Position numbers and translations under genes: made by a program | The notes under the pieces: generated by a model | The model's input: the letters and a program-made list of their open reading frames with translations, nothing else | The model's database searches: none | Told to the model about the DNA's origin: nothing | In this document: positions 38,755 through 53,100 of the stretch, in pieces | How the letters are laid out: the number at the start of each line of letters is the position of its first letter | How positions within the stretch are numbered: position 1 is the first letter of the stretch | Source: Sclerotinia nivalis | Taxonomy: Eukaryota; Ascomycota; Leotiomycetes; Helotiales; Sclerotiniaceae | Assembly: GCA_029531795.1 (NCBI GenBank) | Contig: JAPEIS010000012.1 | Location: forward strand, 1,240,001-1,304,000 | Direction: 5' to 3' | Length of the DNA stretch: 64,000 bases

Positions 38755-38826
38755 AGCCCAACGGGGGGTCGAACCCCCAACCTTGTGATTAAGAGTCACA
38801 CGCTCTACCGATTGAGCTAGCCGGGC
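38755..38826 (-). tRNA. tRNA-Lys (anticodon CTT)
   Basis: The minus strand folds as a tRNA. The acceptor arms are GCCCGGC and GTTGGGC with discriminator T, the D arm is GCTC/GAGC and the anticodon stem TGTGA/TCACA encloses loop CTCTTAA (anticodon CTT, Lys). The T arm is GGGGG/CCCCC with loop TTCGAC. There is no intron. Yeast tRNA-Lys(CTT) also has discriminator U. The T loop is six instead of seven nucleotides, so the gene is 72 nt long. Either a base is missing in the C run of the assembly or the gene is atypical. Confidence 0.93.
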
Positions 38827-45100: not shown

Positions 45101-45772
45101 CCTTTTTTCTCCTCTCCTTTATCCTTTCATATACTTAGTAATCAACCTCTTGTTTTCATAAACCTCAAATATAGTTTTATTATTAACTCTACATAAAGTG
45201 TTGAAAGTTACAACCCGCAATAAACCCAAGCCAAGGCTAAGATCAGGAGACCAGGAAGCAATGCAATGTTGATGCCGGTCTGACGTTGATTGACAGGCCA
45301 TTTGAAAGACCTGATAACGAACAAACAGAACAATCCGAACTTTAAATAAAAACTATATCACCACTTTAAAATCAACAAGTAATAAAAGACTTTCAATCCT
45401 CAATAACACTTCGAATCAAGAAACGCTTCAAACGCACCCTCCCCATCAACAGGTTGATAGTTTCGTTGAGCACTTCCACATTTCTCTTGAAATATCCAGC
45501 AACCTTCTTTCCGAACTCCTACTCATCGATTGTCAACACGAACTCCCGCATCATCAACTTCAATCCAAATATCCTCACGAGATCACCCACGAGATCATTC
45601 ACCTCATTTGTGCTGTTCCACACGTGATTATTAGATCGCATCTCATCTACTCTTATTACTTCCGCATAGCGTTGCAGCTACTGTCTTTAGAACTCTATTC
45701 AAAACTTAGAAATCACTTCCTGGTCAGTTCTTTCCTCACAGTTACCATGTATTTACTAATTATCTTCAGACC
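42125..45772. other. Gene-poor stretch upstream of DUF3405 and luciferase-domain genes
   Basis: The two flanking genes diverge, so both promoters are here. In 3.6 kb I see no protein family, tRNA or snoRNA signature on either strand. A pyrimidine-rich leader precedes the gene at 45773. Confidence 0.5.
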
Positions 45773-46747
45773 ATGAATGGCACCGCCACAACCACCGAGG
45801 CTGCTGTAGCCATCCGAGAACGTCATCCTACACACGATGTCCTAGAAATACCAATGGGTCTTACGCAACAAGACATCATTCAAATCACTCTTACTGGACC
45901 AGGTCTCATCCTCACCATCCTAGGTATCATCATCAGCATCAACCTTTTCCAGCCATCCCTAACCTGCACCATCATTGCGTTGGCACCAATACCATGGATC
46001 ATCTATAACGACTACCACAACTTCATATCCTTAGGTCCAGGAGGAACTCCCTCTACTCTACTAGGATACGTCAAAATCACATATCTCCGCATCTTCGCTC
46101 TTTCCAATCCATACAGCCCGCCAAATGCCTCCGATGATACATATCCTACCATCGGTTACATTCAACGCGCTCGTCCCCACCTTCCTATCCGCAGTGGTCC
46201 GCGTCCCAAAGTCGCCGGTATCGCTCCCCAGAGACAAATAAGCCAATATGGTTCTCGAGCCATGTATCAACTTCTCCGCACCAGCCTCAACAATCTCGCT
46301 CACCGACACTCCGACAAATTCAAGACAGACGTATCATGTTTTGAAAAGAAAGGACTTGCACTCTTCGCCCTCGATCCCATCAATACCACCTGCAAGGGAG
46401 AAATCTGTCATGTGCATCATAGCGACAATAGTTTCCACATGAACCTACACCCCCACGATGCCAAAGTTATCCTGGAAAAGGGTTGGGGCGAAAGACACCC
46501 GATGGCTGGGGCCTCGACACCAAAAGCCATTTCGAATTTCCTGTCCTATCTTCCAAAATCTCTATCCGCGTGGTTCTCACCAAGAGTTGTCCCAGATCAA
46601 TTCGTTCTGATATATGCACCGAGGAATAGAGAGGAGCTAGAAGTTGTATGCCACATCATCGAGGCGGCTACATTTTGGGTCAGTGGCGAGCAAGTGACAC
46701 TTCCTATCGAGAGTGTCCCGTTGGGTGAGGAACCTGTTGGTGCTTAA
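45773..46747 (+). CDS. Membrane-anchored luciferase-domain (DUF5519) protein
   Basis: A single exon encodes 324 residues. Two adjacent hydrophobic segments lie near residues 38-60 and 65-80 (GLILTILGIIISINLF, CTIIALAPIPWII), followed by a soluble C-terminal domain with HVHHSDNSFHMNLHPHDAKVILEKGWGERHPMAG. That stretch is the core of the fungal and bacterial family named Luciferase in Pfam (PF17648, from memory). Despite the name, light production is not implied and the biochemical role is unknown. The end of the domain (PDQFVLIYAPRNREELEVVCHIIEAATFW) is present, so the protein appears complete. The ATG follows a CT-rich leader. Confidence 0.8.
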   Translation: MNGTATTTEAAVAIRERHPTHDVLEIPMGLTQQDIIQITLTGPGLILTILGIIISINLFQPSLTCTIIALAPIPWIIYNDYHNFISLGPGGTPSTLLGYVKITYLRIFALSNPYSPPNASDDTYPTIGYIQRARPHLPIRSGPRPKVAGIAPQRQISQYGSRAMYQLLRTSLNNLAHRHSDKFKTDVSCFEKKGLALFALDPINTTCKGEICHVHHSDNSFHMNLHPHDAKVILEKGWGERHPMAGASTPKAISNFLSYLPKSLSAWFSPRVVPDQFVLIYAPRNREELEVVCHIIEAATFWVSGEQVTLPIESVPLGEEPVGA

Positions 46748-47290: not shown

Positions 47291-48674
47291 CTAAGACCTC
47301 CTTGCATCACATTCTTCAAGGAACTTGTATATTCCTTCTAAACCCTCATATTCCTCCGATACAGATTGATGTTCGCTGACCTTTGTAAAATATGCGGAAC
47401 CACTTTCGCTGACATCTTCTTCCATTGTTTCATAATCTTCAATCCAGGGATTTTCCGAGAATTCTTCGAGGATATCTTCATATTCATCTTGGTCGGGAGA
47501 AGGGGAGCTAGTTTGTAGACAATGAGATTGAGGGCGCGAGGGCGACTCTGCTTCGGTAGTGGGGGCGAAAGGGAATAGAAGAGCCATCTGTGTTCCAACG
47601 GCGTCATCAAAATTGGCATCTTGATATACGATTCCTCGTTGCACGCCGACTTCATCGCAGAGACGCTCTACAGATTCGGCATCGCAGCCGGGAAACCGGA
47701 CACGCAGGATGTGGTTGTTTTCAAGGGTTATTGGGAGATCGCCGAGAGAGGACAGTTTTTTAAGGTCGTTCATTGTCGCCGCGAGATCTTTTAGAGCGCG
47801 GGAGAAATCGACGGAGAGAATGTCGAGGAAGCCGGATGTGTTGAGAGAGGGAGCGGCTTGTGACATCTTTTGAGTTCCGAAGGGAAGGGCTCCGTCGAGA
47901 GGGGATAGAGCAGTGACAGTTGGGTTAACAAAAAAATCGATATAGGAGCCTGGAGTAACTTTGGAGACAGATTGGATCTTGCGGGCTGTTTCTTCTTGAA
48001 GGGAAGAAACCGCTCTGTAGCGTTTCTCGCCCATAGGAGTCATACCATCGAATTGAGCTTTCTGGCCAGAAAGGAAGAATGCTCGGACAGCTTGTGAGAC
48101 ATTGTTAACCACTTGTGCTGGAGCAGCAGGTGTATGGGAAAAGTATCGAGCACCTGCTCTTCCACCTCCTAAAGTATAACCTCCTGCTGTTCTGGGGAGA
48201 GCTCCACCAGTTAAGTTTGGTCGGAGAGTTGAGGCAAATGGAGCTCGTGCTGTGAGACGTGATACAGCGGTTGCGGTGTTTGATTTTGGGAATGAAGCAC
48301 GGTCATATTTAATGGCTTGTCCGCTGGTGCTCATAAAACGACGTACAGCGGCATTGACAGCACTTTGGGTTGTATACCATCGTCCCTTATTTTGACGGAG
48401 AAGGGCCGCAGGATGAATGGGGTGACGAGGTGAGCTTCTTACGAAAATTGGTTGAAGTTCTGCTGTGACAGGTTTGTTGGTAAAATCTTTGATACGTAAT
48501 TTAATGAGTTTCGTAGTTCGTTGAACTACATTCCTGTAATAGATGTTAGAATACTATGTTGCATTGACGGCAACGAGGACATTGGAATTTCCCATGGAGA
48601 AAGTTGGATTTGGTAGTAACTTACTTTAGCATCCTCACGGCTACAGGTGCCCAGATGCCTCCGGACGATGCCAT
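47291..48674 (-). CDS. Conserved fungal protein, often annotated casein kinase II beta 2
   Basis: Minus-strand exons 48674-48625 and 48533-47291, joined across a 91-nt intron (GTAAGT donor, TCTAAC branch), encode 430 residues. The first exon reads MASSGGIWAPVAVRMLK and continues NVVQRTTKLIKLRIKDFTNKPVT. From memory, proteins with this start are labelled casein kinase II beta 2 subunit in filamentous fungi. I see no CK2-beta zinc motif, so the label may be historical. The basic, Ser/Arg-rich N-terminal region (RRFMSTSG, ARYFSHTP) suggests mitochondrial import. The C-terminal 100 residues are acidic. The function is not established from sequence. It diverges from the snoRNA locus with only a short shared promoter. 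Confidence 0.8.
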
Positions 48675-48900
48675 GATGAATACTGATTTATGAAGTTATT
48701 TACACTCTTTGATTGTTGTAAATGGAAATGGATTCGTACCTTGAAGTCGAGACGGATCTTATCGGGGAATGTCATCGCCACTGCTCAGCCACACCAGTCA
48801 TTGCGTGGCTTAGAAGCTAACTATTTACAGCTTTAGCGCCATGTGTGCGCTAGTGATTAGCGCGAAATAAATTTTTGATCTTGAGCTTTAAAACTTTTCG
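48675..48900. promoter_or_regulatory. Putative bidirectional promoter, conserved protein gene and snoRNA host
   Basis: This short gap separates the minus-strand start at 48674 from the first CT-rich host-gene exon at about 48900. No other promoter candidate for the plus-strand snoRNA series is visible. Confidence 0.45.
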
Positions 48901-49044
48901 TCCTCGACCTGTTTCTTCCAATTGTCACCATCCAGCATTTGCAACCACAACAATATCTTCACTTCCTCATAAATTTGTTTTCTGTTTTCACGATGATTTA
49001 ATTTCTTTTATATGGTAAGAGATCTCTTCTCCTTGTCAGCTGCA

Positions 49045-49129
49045 ATTGCCTCAATGATGAACACAAACACATATTGAACAATCCAACTCTTACACCACAA
49101 TGGAGATTTGTATTTTCTATCTGAGCAAT
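49045..49129 (+). ncRNA. C/D-box snoRNA candidate 1 (host intron 1)
   Basis: C box ATGATGA at 49054-49060 and D box CTGA at 49121-49124, with flanking ATTGC (49045-49049) and GCAAT (49125-49129) able to close the ends. Four nucleotides separate the 5' arm from the C box, which is unusual. The antisense element before D (GATTTGTATTTTCTAT) matches no rRNA segment that I remember, so the target is unknown. Confidence 0.55.
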
Positions 49130-49289
49130 CTTGATTTATATCATCAATTCGAATGCGACGCGGTTGAGCAGACAGCTAACTTCCATCTCAGACGGCTTCA
49201 ATTGCTATTTTAATTCTTCCGCCATTCGCACAAATTTTAATTCAAAAGGTTCGTACATTTCCATTATTCTCTTTTTTTGTACACACCGT

Positions 49290-49383
49290 TGGGGGTGATG
49301 ATGAAAACACATTGGAAAGGCATTCCTCAATCCGAATTATACTGTCGAATCTTTGCATTTAAGTTTCAGCCTTGTCTGACCCA
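49290..49383 (+). ncRNA. snR41: C/D-box snoRNA candidate 2, snR41-like (18S Gm1126 guide)
   Basis: The terminal stem TGGG (49290-49293) pairs with CCCA (49380-49383), the C box is GTGATGA (49295-49301) and the D box CTGA (49376-49379). The 17 nt TTTAAGTTTCAGCCTTG (49358-49374) are complementary to the universally conserved 18S segment CAAGGCTGAAACTTAAA. The fifth position upstream of D pairs with the first G of that run, equivalent to yeast 18S Gm1126, guided by snR41. It sits in an intron with a downstream GCTAAC branch. Targets are from memory of yeast rRNA. Confidence 0.87.
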
Positions 49384-49536
49384 TCGTCCATTACTATTTA
49401 TCATTGAAACATCTTTTCTGTGCCAAAGCTAACCACACATTGGCAATAGGTACATACACTTCCTTTTAGCATCAATTCACTTGCATTACATGACGAACTT
49501 TGAACGAACGGGCGGACAGACTGCGCACTCTTGCTC

Positions 49537-49674
49537 CTACCTCTCATTAAAGCAAGGCGTACAAACCTTGTGAGGGGTAGACAGTTAGGAAGTGCTTGTT
49601 GAGAACTCGTCAGCTGATCTAATGCTCAATTGCTTCTGGATCATTTTGATATGCCGCTCGAAATAGAAACATTG
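49537..49674 (+). ncRNA. Possible H/ACA-like two-hairpin RNA (host intron 3)
   Basis: The first hairpin has stem CTACCTCTCA/TGAGGGGTAG enclosing an upper stem CAAGG/CCTTG. A second hairpin pairs TTGAG with CTCGA and TGATCTA with TGGATCA, and an ACA follows at 49669-49671. The hinge lacks a clean ANANNA box and the pocket-to-ACA distance is longer than usual, so this is tentative. Confidence 0.3.
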
Positions 49675-49740
49675 ATGCTAACATACCTTTTTTTAGGTAA
49701 ATATTGCAATTTTCTCTCCTATTGTTACACAGGGCCATTG

Positions 49741-49822
49741 CATTGAAATGATGAAACTTATTCACACTGTTTGAAGTGGACTACGTCCGCTACTGAACGC
49801 ACTATAAAAATCTGATTTAATG
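49741..49822 (+). ncRNA. C/D-box snoRNA candidate 3 (host intron 4)
   Basis: A seven-base terminal stem, CATTGAA with TTTAATG (one G-U pair), encloses C box ATGATGA (49748-49754) and D box CTGA (49812-49815). Another CTGA at 49793-49796 may be D'. The element before it, GTGGACTACGTCCGCTA, matches no rRNA segment that I remember. GCTAAC and the acceptor follow at 49860-49875. Confidence 0.65.
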
Positions 49823-50049
49823 AGGTATGCTTTACTCTTGTATGACATAGAAGACCAATGCTAACAACACTATAGCCTGACATTTGCCTTATGGTTCCTT
49901 ACATTTTGATTCCATCGAAATGATGTTCGACTATAGATGACAATTGCTGACAATATCATCTCGAATGTAGACAATCCATTAATCTGAAGCTGTTGACAAA
50001 GTTGTCTAAAAATGTAAGCTACTTCTTTCCATTTACCTCTCCACATTCT

Positions 50050-50136
50050 TTGCTCTGATGAACCCAAATATTCGCTGTGTTCTTTCCGAGTCAACCTTTG
50101 ACGAAACACATATTTCACCTTGGAGAACTGAGATAG
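50050..50136 (+). ncRNA. C/D-box snoRNA candidate 4, 25S guide near yeast Um1888 (snR62-like)
   Basis: C box TGATGA (50056-50061, preceded by C and not a purine) and D box CTGA (50128-50131). TTCACCTTGGAGA (50114-50126) is a 13-nt complement to the conserved 25S/28S segment TCTCCAAGGTGAA, the neighbourhood of yeast Um1888 guided by snR62. The D+5 nucleotide here points to a C in that run, so the exact site needs the true rRNA sequence. A terminal stem is weak. The candidate lies between a GTAAGC donor (50014) and GCTAAC (50186). Confidence 0.6.
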
Positions 50137-50199
50137 TACTCATGTTATTCATTTCAACCTTCTGTTAACGATAGTTGGGACTGGAGCTAACTTACATAG

Positions 50200-53100
50200 A
50201 TATTTTGAAAATTGGGGATGGAATATTTTGAGTTAAGGCAATGGAAGTTATAGATAGACATAATACAAAAGATTCTCAGAACATCTCCTGACTTGCCTTA
50301 CCATGTGAAAATCCTCCATCTTGTACTCAAAGGCCGCCTGTGCGTCCGCAATGCTCATTCGCATAACATTTCCCACCAAAATCGACTGAATTAAGGAGCG
50401 CCTCGCGTTCATCTACTGGTACCGCACCACTTGATGATCCTCTTTGAAGTAGCTTCATATTCGAAGACCACTGAACGGATTTATCATCAGAACAGCCTCC
50501 ACGTCGAGGTATTTCGAGGTATTTCGAGCCAAATCGGGCCTGCAAAAGATGCGGAAAATAAAGCCAACCGAGGAGCTTGAGTCTAACTTGCCAAGGGCCG
50601 GTAAAAGCCCAGAAGCTGAATGACTTCTTATCAAAAGCACAACTAGACGGATACTTCTGAGTTTATAGCAAAGATTTATCGACGGCATGTCCAGAAGCCT
50701 TGCTTATCCGATGTACCACATTTCCTTCTCATTTTCTTTTCCTCCAGCACATCTTCTTTAAGCATGCCGAATTCTACTCCCTTTCTTGTGCTGCATCCGG
50801 CCATAAACCCTTGGTTTTCTACCTATACAACAAATCATAATGATGTGCAGCGAATCCATCAGTCAAAAAAGCTGGAGAATATCGCCAAGCAGGTGTATCT
50901 TTTCATCACCATTGCCTTGGTTCGTACTTCCGATTCCACTCTACCGGGAAAGCGACATCCCACACCCGTAATTCCTCCATATAAATCAAACCTGGTAACT
51001 TGCTTTATTTTCACTCTTCTCAGGAATCTCGTATACCTCACTGAATCTTGATTAATGAATGCATCTAGTGTTGTGCTGATGCATCGATCGTATCCGATCG
51101 TATCTGATCGAACCGCTTGGTATAGTCCAGTACAGTACTATCTATGATATGATCACAGATACTCGGAGTTAGTACATCAGTAAGTAGCCTGCTATTTTCA
51201 CAGATATACATTTCTAGTCTCTAGCAACTTCTGTCTTATGACATGGAACCGTGACGGGAATCCGAAGATCGGGATGAAGACTGTCTCAATCCGAACACAC
51301 TGACTCAAGAACGTTCTCAATTTTAACGTCATCTCTCCTTAAGTTCCTGCTACACGCGCCGTGCTAGTAAAATTCAGCTTCGGGATTTCCGTAGTATGGA
51401 ATAGGCCATCCAGTCAACCCACTTTACTTCTATCCTGTCTCTCGGGCCTGGATAAATATTTCAGGTTCATCCGCCTTGGCTCAAAGTTCGCCTGGGAAGA
51501 TTTCCACGTTTTATTGCCTGGATTGTGTGGAATCTACTATCTTCCCTCATCTTGTCTTCTCATAAAAACAGAATTTTCATGTATGAGCAGGTCCAATTGT
51601 TGAAATCAAGGAGAATGAGTACTTATCCTCTGCACTGTGAATCTGCCTAGTCCTCTTCCATCTCTTTGAGGTTGAAAAGTTGGTTTGGAAAGATAATACC
51701 CAGTAGGTCGCAAGGTCGCTACCTACTGGTACTTCAAGCACTTCTTTGGTAGAGAGAACAAACCTTTTATATATGTACTAGGTATACAGATTATAAAACC
51801 GGAGTGATTTACTCATAGTGTTGATGGTGCTAATAACAATGGCGAAGGTAAACCACAAAATTGCTTAATTTATTTAACTGTTGTATTACCTTCCTTTACC
51901 TTCACCTTACCCTCAAAAACCACAATTTTTCATGAAATCATGAATATAATTGCTAGGTATGATGATAATTATACATAAACCCTCCCCGCCGGCCTGGCAA
52001 TTTTGACCGCATCTCGAATCTAGACCAGGACCAAAGGAAAGTGTAAAGAAATTGTGAACATATTACCTAGGTACCTCAAACTGAAAAACAGGATGAAGAT
52101 AGGGAATAAGGAGATTTAATACATACATACATACAACTTCTCCTTCCATAACCCTATACTCTTACATAGAAACATCCCGCAAGATCCCTCCAATTCAAAC
52201 TACCTCTCATCTCTTATCTTCCATCGCACCTATTCCATCTCCATTGCATTTGCCCGAAGAAAAAAAAGGGAAGAAAGCAATTCTCGGCCCTTTTTATATT
52301 CCCTTTACTTGCTAACCTACTAACTTCCTCACTTCCAGTACCTGACTACTTAGCGATTACTTAGCTACTTACTTCCTTCTTTACCTCCTTACTTATTTAT
52401 GTACAATACTTATAATTTTCCATATACCCACAAAGCACCACCACGAATCACCACACCACACTCCAGCAACCCCTCTCCCAAAGAAAAAACCCACGAAGCG
52501 GATGAAACGACGTAAAAAGAAAGGAAGCATCAAAGCATCAAAGCATACTGGACAAAAGTGATCAAAAACACAAGACAATCATTCTGAAAGCCAAATAGAT
52601 ATACATACATGCATACAAAAACCCTTCCAAAAGCGAAAATACCTACCTACCTAGTACCAGTAATCTACAATTTTAATCATGGCTCAATGAGATGTTCGGG
52701 CCGATCAATTATATTATGTATCCAATATGCGAGTATGTCAGAATAAATATAAATTTAGATACCTAGTAGGTTATGGATATCCAAATCCAAATCCAAATCC
52801 AAATCACATTCATTATGAAAGCAAAGAAAAATCACATATCATACTGCGCAGAAAACCTATGTAAAAAAGTGTTCTTCATCTATTCAGCTGGTGATTGACA
52901 TCTTGGTAAAGAAGAAATGCATGATACCTAGTAGACTAAGAGACCTGCAGCTACATCACATAACATAATGAAGCTCTCTGTCTCCTTCCTCTGCTCTTTT
53001 CCTTTCATGCTTTACAAATCCATTGTTTTGTCCAGTCCACTAGTGAACTCGACCTAGATCATGACCACACCCGATCATCCATTCCTCCTAATCTCCATCT

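Follow-up and report, generated by a model that had tools for sequence, protein, structure and literature searches.

On the plus strand, positions 49015-50199 look like a non-coding gene that is spliced and hosts box C/D snoRNAs, judging from the sequence of the 64-kb window (the whole stretch of DNA that was analyzed, 64,000 nucleotides). The predicted introns, host exons, and snoRNAs are listed below by their positions in the window.

49015..49191, plus strand: intron A (GTAAGA donor, GCTAAC at 49175, first HAG ending at 49191)
49055..49124, plus strand: box C/D candidate in intron A, from box C to box D (TGATGA at 49055, CTGA at 49121)
49192..49252, plus strand: host exon 2, between introns A and I
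49253..49449, plus strand: intron I (GTACAT donor, GCTAAC at 49428, AG at 49449)
49291..49381, plus strand: snR41 homolog (Rfam Afu_455, 61.0 bits, cut-off 48)
49450..49696, plus strand: intron II (GTACAT donor, GCTAAC at 49677, AG at 49696)
49486..49620, plus strand: snR70 candidate, from box C TGACGA at 49491 to CTGA at 49614-49617 (extent by our own reading)
49697..49970, plus strand: intron III (GTAAAT donor, branch site GCTGAC at 49946, AG at 49970)
49744..49824, plus strand: 5' part of snR51 with box C and the 18S guide (Rfam snR51; 13-bp 18S match)
49825..49875, plus strand: intron B, nested in snR51 inside intron III (GTATGC donor, GCTAAC at 49860, AG at 49875, then CCTGA)
49876..49891, plus strand: 3' part of snR51 with box D CTGA at 49877-49880 and stem (15-bp 18S match when joined, flank duplex)
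49971..50013, plus strand: host exon 3, between introns III and C
50014..50199, plus strand: intron C (GTAAGC donor, GCTAAC at 50186, AG at 50199)
50051..50134, plus strand: Afu_294 box C/D snoRNA (Rfam, 84.5 bits, cut-off 43)

The Rfam search of the 64-kb window at curated cut-offs returned three matches: Afu_294, Afu_455, and one tRNA. With E values up to 1, the region 48000-51500 gave five matches (Afu_294, Afu_455, snR51, snR41, and snoZ101). Rfam snR41 falls on the Afu_455 site with 28.7 bits, below its cut-off of 50, and snoZ101 falls on the Afu_294 site with 26.5 bits (cut-off 44). The snR51 match at 49744-49832 scored 38.3 bits, below the cut-off of 44, a shortfall to which the intron between box D and the rest of the RNA plausibly contributes. 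A search of 49450-49700 alone, with E up to 10, gave snR70 as the single match (13.0 bits, E 5). Its box C and guide core GGGCGGACA are conserved, and the alignment spans 49486-49548 only, stopping well before the CTGA at 49614 taken as box D. The fold z of the RNA at 49485-49620 was -3.55. Thus, snR41 (through Afu_455), snR70, and snR51 lie on one strand in the order of fungal snoRNA gene cluster III, with snR51 below the Rfam cut-off and snR70 at 13 bits only. The targets of snR41, snR70, and Afu_294 are presumed ones, taken from family membership or general background.

The intron map starts from the branch sites. An earlier note on this DNA had listed GCTAAC five times, with an acceptor AG after each copy, and all five are present (49175, 49428, 49677, 49860, and 50186). 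Five copies were reached in none of 5000 dinucleotide-preserving shuffles of 48900-50199 (mean 0.23, maximum 3), and every other 1300-nt window on both strands of the stretch had at most two, in a comparison that omits plus-strand windows starting between 47500 and 50300. That list lacked one more branch site, the GCTGAC at 49946. All six introns have an RCTRAC branch site with the first HAG behind it as acceptor, the final base of the AG lying 9-20 nt from the branch A. For fungal introns, the relevant part of PMC5832005 gives a branch-to-acceptor range of 6-36 nt and the branch consensus RCTRAY.

The earlier note also placed C boxes in four intron bodies, and TGATGA does occur in four (49055, 49296/49299, 49749, and 50056); beyond these, the body of intron II holds a snoRNA candidate with the variant box C TGACGA. 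By itself, TGATGA carries little weight (0.9 per shuffle on average, at most 6). The spacing between box D and the acceptor is 67 nt for intron A, 70 nt for I, 79 nt for II, 90 nt for III, and 68 nt for C.

Introns I, II, and III abut without an exon, the AG being directly followed by GT at 49449/49450 and at 49696/49697, so that the two missing interior exons characteristic of cluster III are found here as well. The donor of intron I is either GTACAT at 49253 or GTTCGT at 49249, and with the latter exon 2 would end at 49248. The fourth GCTAAC, at 49860, had been taken in the earlier note as the acceptor signal of the intron carrying snR51. We read it instead as the branch site of the nested 51-nt intron B, with intron III ending at 49970 after GCTGAC. 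The anatomy proposed earlier is therefore kept for the intronic snoRNAs and revised for the introns, which number six and not five, with three of them abutting and with snR51 split by a nested intron.

The assignment of intron B depends on what its removal does to snR51. Behind the 18S guide CTGATTTAATGAG, the genomic sequence continues with GTATGC instead of a box D, and there is no CTGA until 49877. In silico removal of 49825-49875 yields CTGATTTAATGAGCCTGA, which supplies box D. At the same time, the match to the 18S of the same genome, of which the first 1058 bases were compared, grows from 13 to 15 bp (18S 94-108). In the joined RNA, the A of GGCTCA, at 18S position 99 by our count, lies opposite the T that is the fifth base before box D. 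We take this A to be the equivalent of yeast A100. The geometry of a methylation guide, with the target base fifth upstream of box D, is thus present once intron B is removed. The 13-bp match alone is nothing special: a match of this length to the same piece of 18S was found in two of 51 other 1190-nt plus-strand windows, and a longer one in none of the 51. When simply aligned with the Rfam consensus for snR51, the RNA scored 60.5 with intron B and 73 without it. Both strands of the window contain 12 intron-like patterns of the intron B class, and (N)CTGA follows only one of them, intron B itself. The snR51 flanks can form an 8-bp duplex (-7.2 kcal/mol), and the minimum-energy fold of the joined RNA is without the terminal stem.

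The start of snR51 (49737-49753) recurs at 49909-49925 in intron III with 88% identity over 17 nt, which could be chance or the remnant of a duplicated snoRNA start. The loop of the snR70 candidate at 49543-49554 is complementary to the snR51 18S guide at 49813-49824 in 11 of 12 bases; this is probably chance, which by estimate yields about as good a match in 1.5 kb. A whole-genome search with the Rfam snR51 family gave no matches and is uninformative, since none of 14 control genomes matched either. An 18S motif was not found in viral contigs in one scan.

Both ends of the cluster carry box C/D RNAs, the first one without a family match and the last one Afu_294. The candidate in intron A has a 5-bp terminal stem. 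No Rfam family rose above noise for it; Yar_1 (14.5 bits) and snR69 (14.1 bits) in this stretch were taken as noise. By position only, it would be of the U45/CD17 type. It has no match of 9 bp or more to the first 1058 bases of 18S, which counts against the U45 label. A stretch of this RNA presumably pairs with conserved 25S, in agreement with the 26S site listed for Neurospora CD17. Afu_294 is inferred by position to be of the U55 type in the scheme of Luo. By sequence, the two end snoRNAs could not be confirmed as the U45 and U55 of that scheme (PMC3596301).

In agreement with the earlier note, no protein gene was seen in the interval. The longest ATG frame of the predicted spliced RNA, with ends that we assumed at 48880 and 50420, is 26 aa, and this length was matched or exceeded in 310 of 500 shuffles. 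When six flanking or overlapping frames were compared with Pfam, the one match was the plus-strand open frame at 45713-46744 (Luciferase domain PF17648, 9.6e-21). A minus-strand open frame of 420 codons at 47291-48553 lies head to head with the host gene and had no match in Pfam, NCBIfam, or PDB. Among the neighboring frames, there was no NCBIfam match for the two compared and no solved structure for the one compared. The tRNA gene found by Rfam lies farther away, at 38755-38826 on the minus strand (62.6 bits).

Taken on its sequence features, the locus is very probably orthologous to the fungal snoRNA gene cluster III (snR41-snR70-snR51) as found in Euascomycetes. It is of a known kind: the Euascomycete "snoRNA gene cluster III" with its "intron B" has already been published, and the locus is another member. 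The core of the earlier note, a non-coding multi-intron snoRNA host gene with an intronic snR41, was right. The intronic layout of snR41, which the note suggested would be a different expression strategy from that of yeast, had already been reported for cluster III in Euascomycetes, Basidiomycota, and Rhizopus, according to the parts of Luo et al. (2013; PMC3596301) used here. The locus shares with the Euascomycete clusters described there the order of the snoRNAs, all of them intronic, the two missing interior exons, the additional snoRNA introns at both ends, and, at the level of sequence, an intron B that parts the guide of snR51 from its box D. The same source reports short inverted repeats around intron B, whereas no exact inverted repeats of 7-12 bp were found here between intron B and its 45-nt flanks.

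Other fungi offer partial parallels. In Neurospora crassa, cluster III (CD17, CD9, and CD6) likewise has a UHG-like non-coding host with snR41 and snR51 homologs; the snR41 homolog is intronic, and RT-PCR supports the cluster hosts (Liu et al., 2009; PMC2780460, in the sections covered). CD6, the snR51 homolog, is listed there as exon-encoded and with only a 26S target by D', unlike snR51 here, in which the 18S guide can be seen, with box D on the far side of an intron. In Neurospora, the box D belonging to the 18S guide may have been hidden by intron B, which could explain the missing 18S target. The SNR41-SNR70-SNR51 cluster of baker's yeast has the same three guides without introns (PMC3938493; PMC3596301). 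Intron-bearing fungal U3 genes also have a spliceosomal intron within a snoRNA, but U3 stands alone as a gene and does not guide methylation, whereas snR51 here is a guide itself lying in an intron (PMC5832005). As described in PMC8469720, stwintrons are likewise one U2 intron nested in another; there, however, it is a splice signal of the outer intron that is interrupted by the inner one, whereas intron B interrupts the snoRNA cargo. A stwintron was rejected for the present case, in which the signals of intron III at 49697, 49946, and 49970 are whole and intron B lies at 49825-49875.

The splice signals, the order of the snoRNAs, and the complementarity to 18S are observed in the sequence; transcription, splicing, RNA stability, and methylation at the locus are what we infer. 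A non-coding host transcript would carry the U45-type candidate, snR41, snR70, snR51, and Afu_294 in its introns, and the guides would be released by splicing, debranching, and trimming to their boxes, as in the known pathway for intronic box C/D RNAs. Because there are no exons between introns I, II, and III, these would be removed stepwise from the 5' side or through one donor with successive acceptors (after Luo, 2013). For Euascomycete cluster III, 42 spliced EST products have been described, of which 18 lacked intron I, 14 lacked I and II, and 10 lacked all three, and the part of the paper dealing with them offers both readings (PMC3596301). The 51-nt spliceosomal intron B would sit between the 18S guide of snR51 and box D, so that box D and the full 18S pairing would be gained only after its removal. 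Joining of the intron III donor to the intron B acceptor would give an excised piece without box D.

This last product is what the layout of the earlier note implies, with five simple introns separated by exons and snR51 wholly within an intron ending at 49860-49875. The five GCTAAC with their AG are indeed present, and the intron III donor could in principle join the intron B acceptor. Since no CTGA is found after the 18S guide before 49877, however, such an intron would release an RNA without a properly placed box D, and two of the supposed exons would have zero length. We rejected this layout on the missing box D and the abutting introns and regard it as extremely unlikely. Just as unlikely is a yeast-like route in which the guides would be cut endonucleolytically out of an unspliced polycistronic transcript and the intron signals would be vestigial. 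S. cerevisiae and its close relatives do make the cluster from unspliced transcripts (PMC3596301, in the part concerned), but the six introns here are well formed, with close branch-to-acceptor distances and an even spacing from box D to acceptor, and snR51 would again be left with no placed box D.

The Rfam score below the cut-off could also mean that snR51 is a decaying pseudogene without box D, its sites being unmethylated or served by another guide. This is very unlikely, as box C, both guide regions, and the CTGA directly after intron B are all intact, and the fit to the family improves when intron B is removed. Moreover, a genome search with 49740-49832 found no second copy of this 5' part among the best candidates scored.

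It is conceivable, although we consider it unlikely, that intron B is a control point, its splicing deciding whether the one snR51 gene gives a working guide. No proposal of snR51 control through intron B was found in the portions of the literature on snR51 and introns that were covered. If true, the extent to which the 25S site and the A100 equivalent in 18S are methylated would track splicing efficiency or growth state, and filamentous fungi would have an intron-gated ribosome heterogeneity. The latter reading is suggested because yeast A100 is only partly methylated, to an extent probably limited by the amount of snR51 (PMC3938493, in the passages concerned).

With the corrected map, cluster III is resolved to the base in one more filamentous fungus, at a locus of the sort that can escape annotation by ORFs and even a search at Rfam cut-offs. 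Within the locus, it is the split guide that merits an experiment: snR51 here is a testable case of a guide RNA that would need to be spliced together before it can work.
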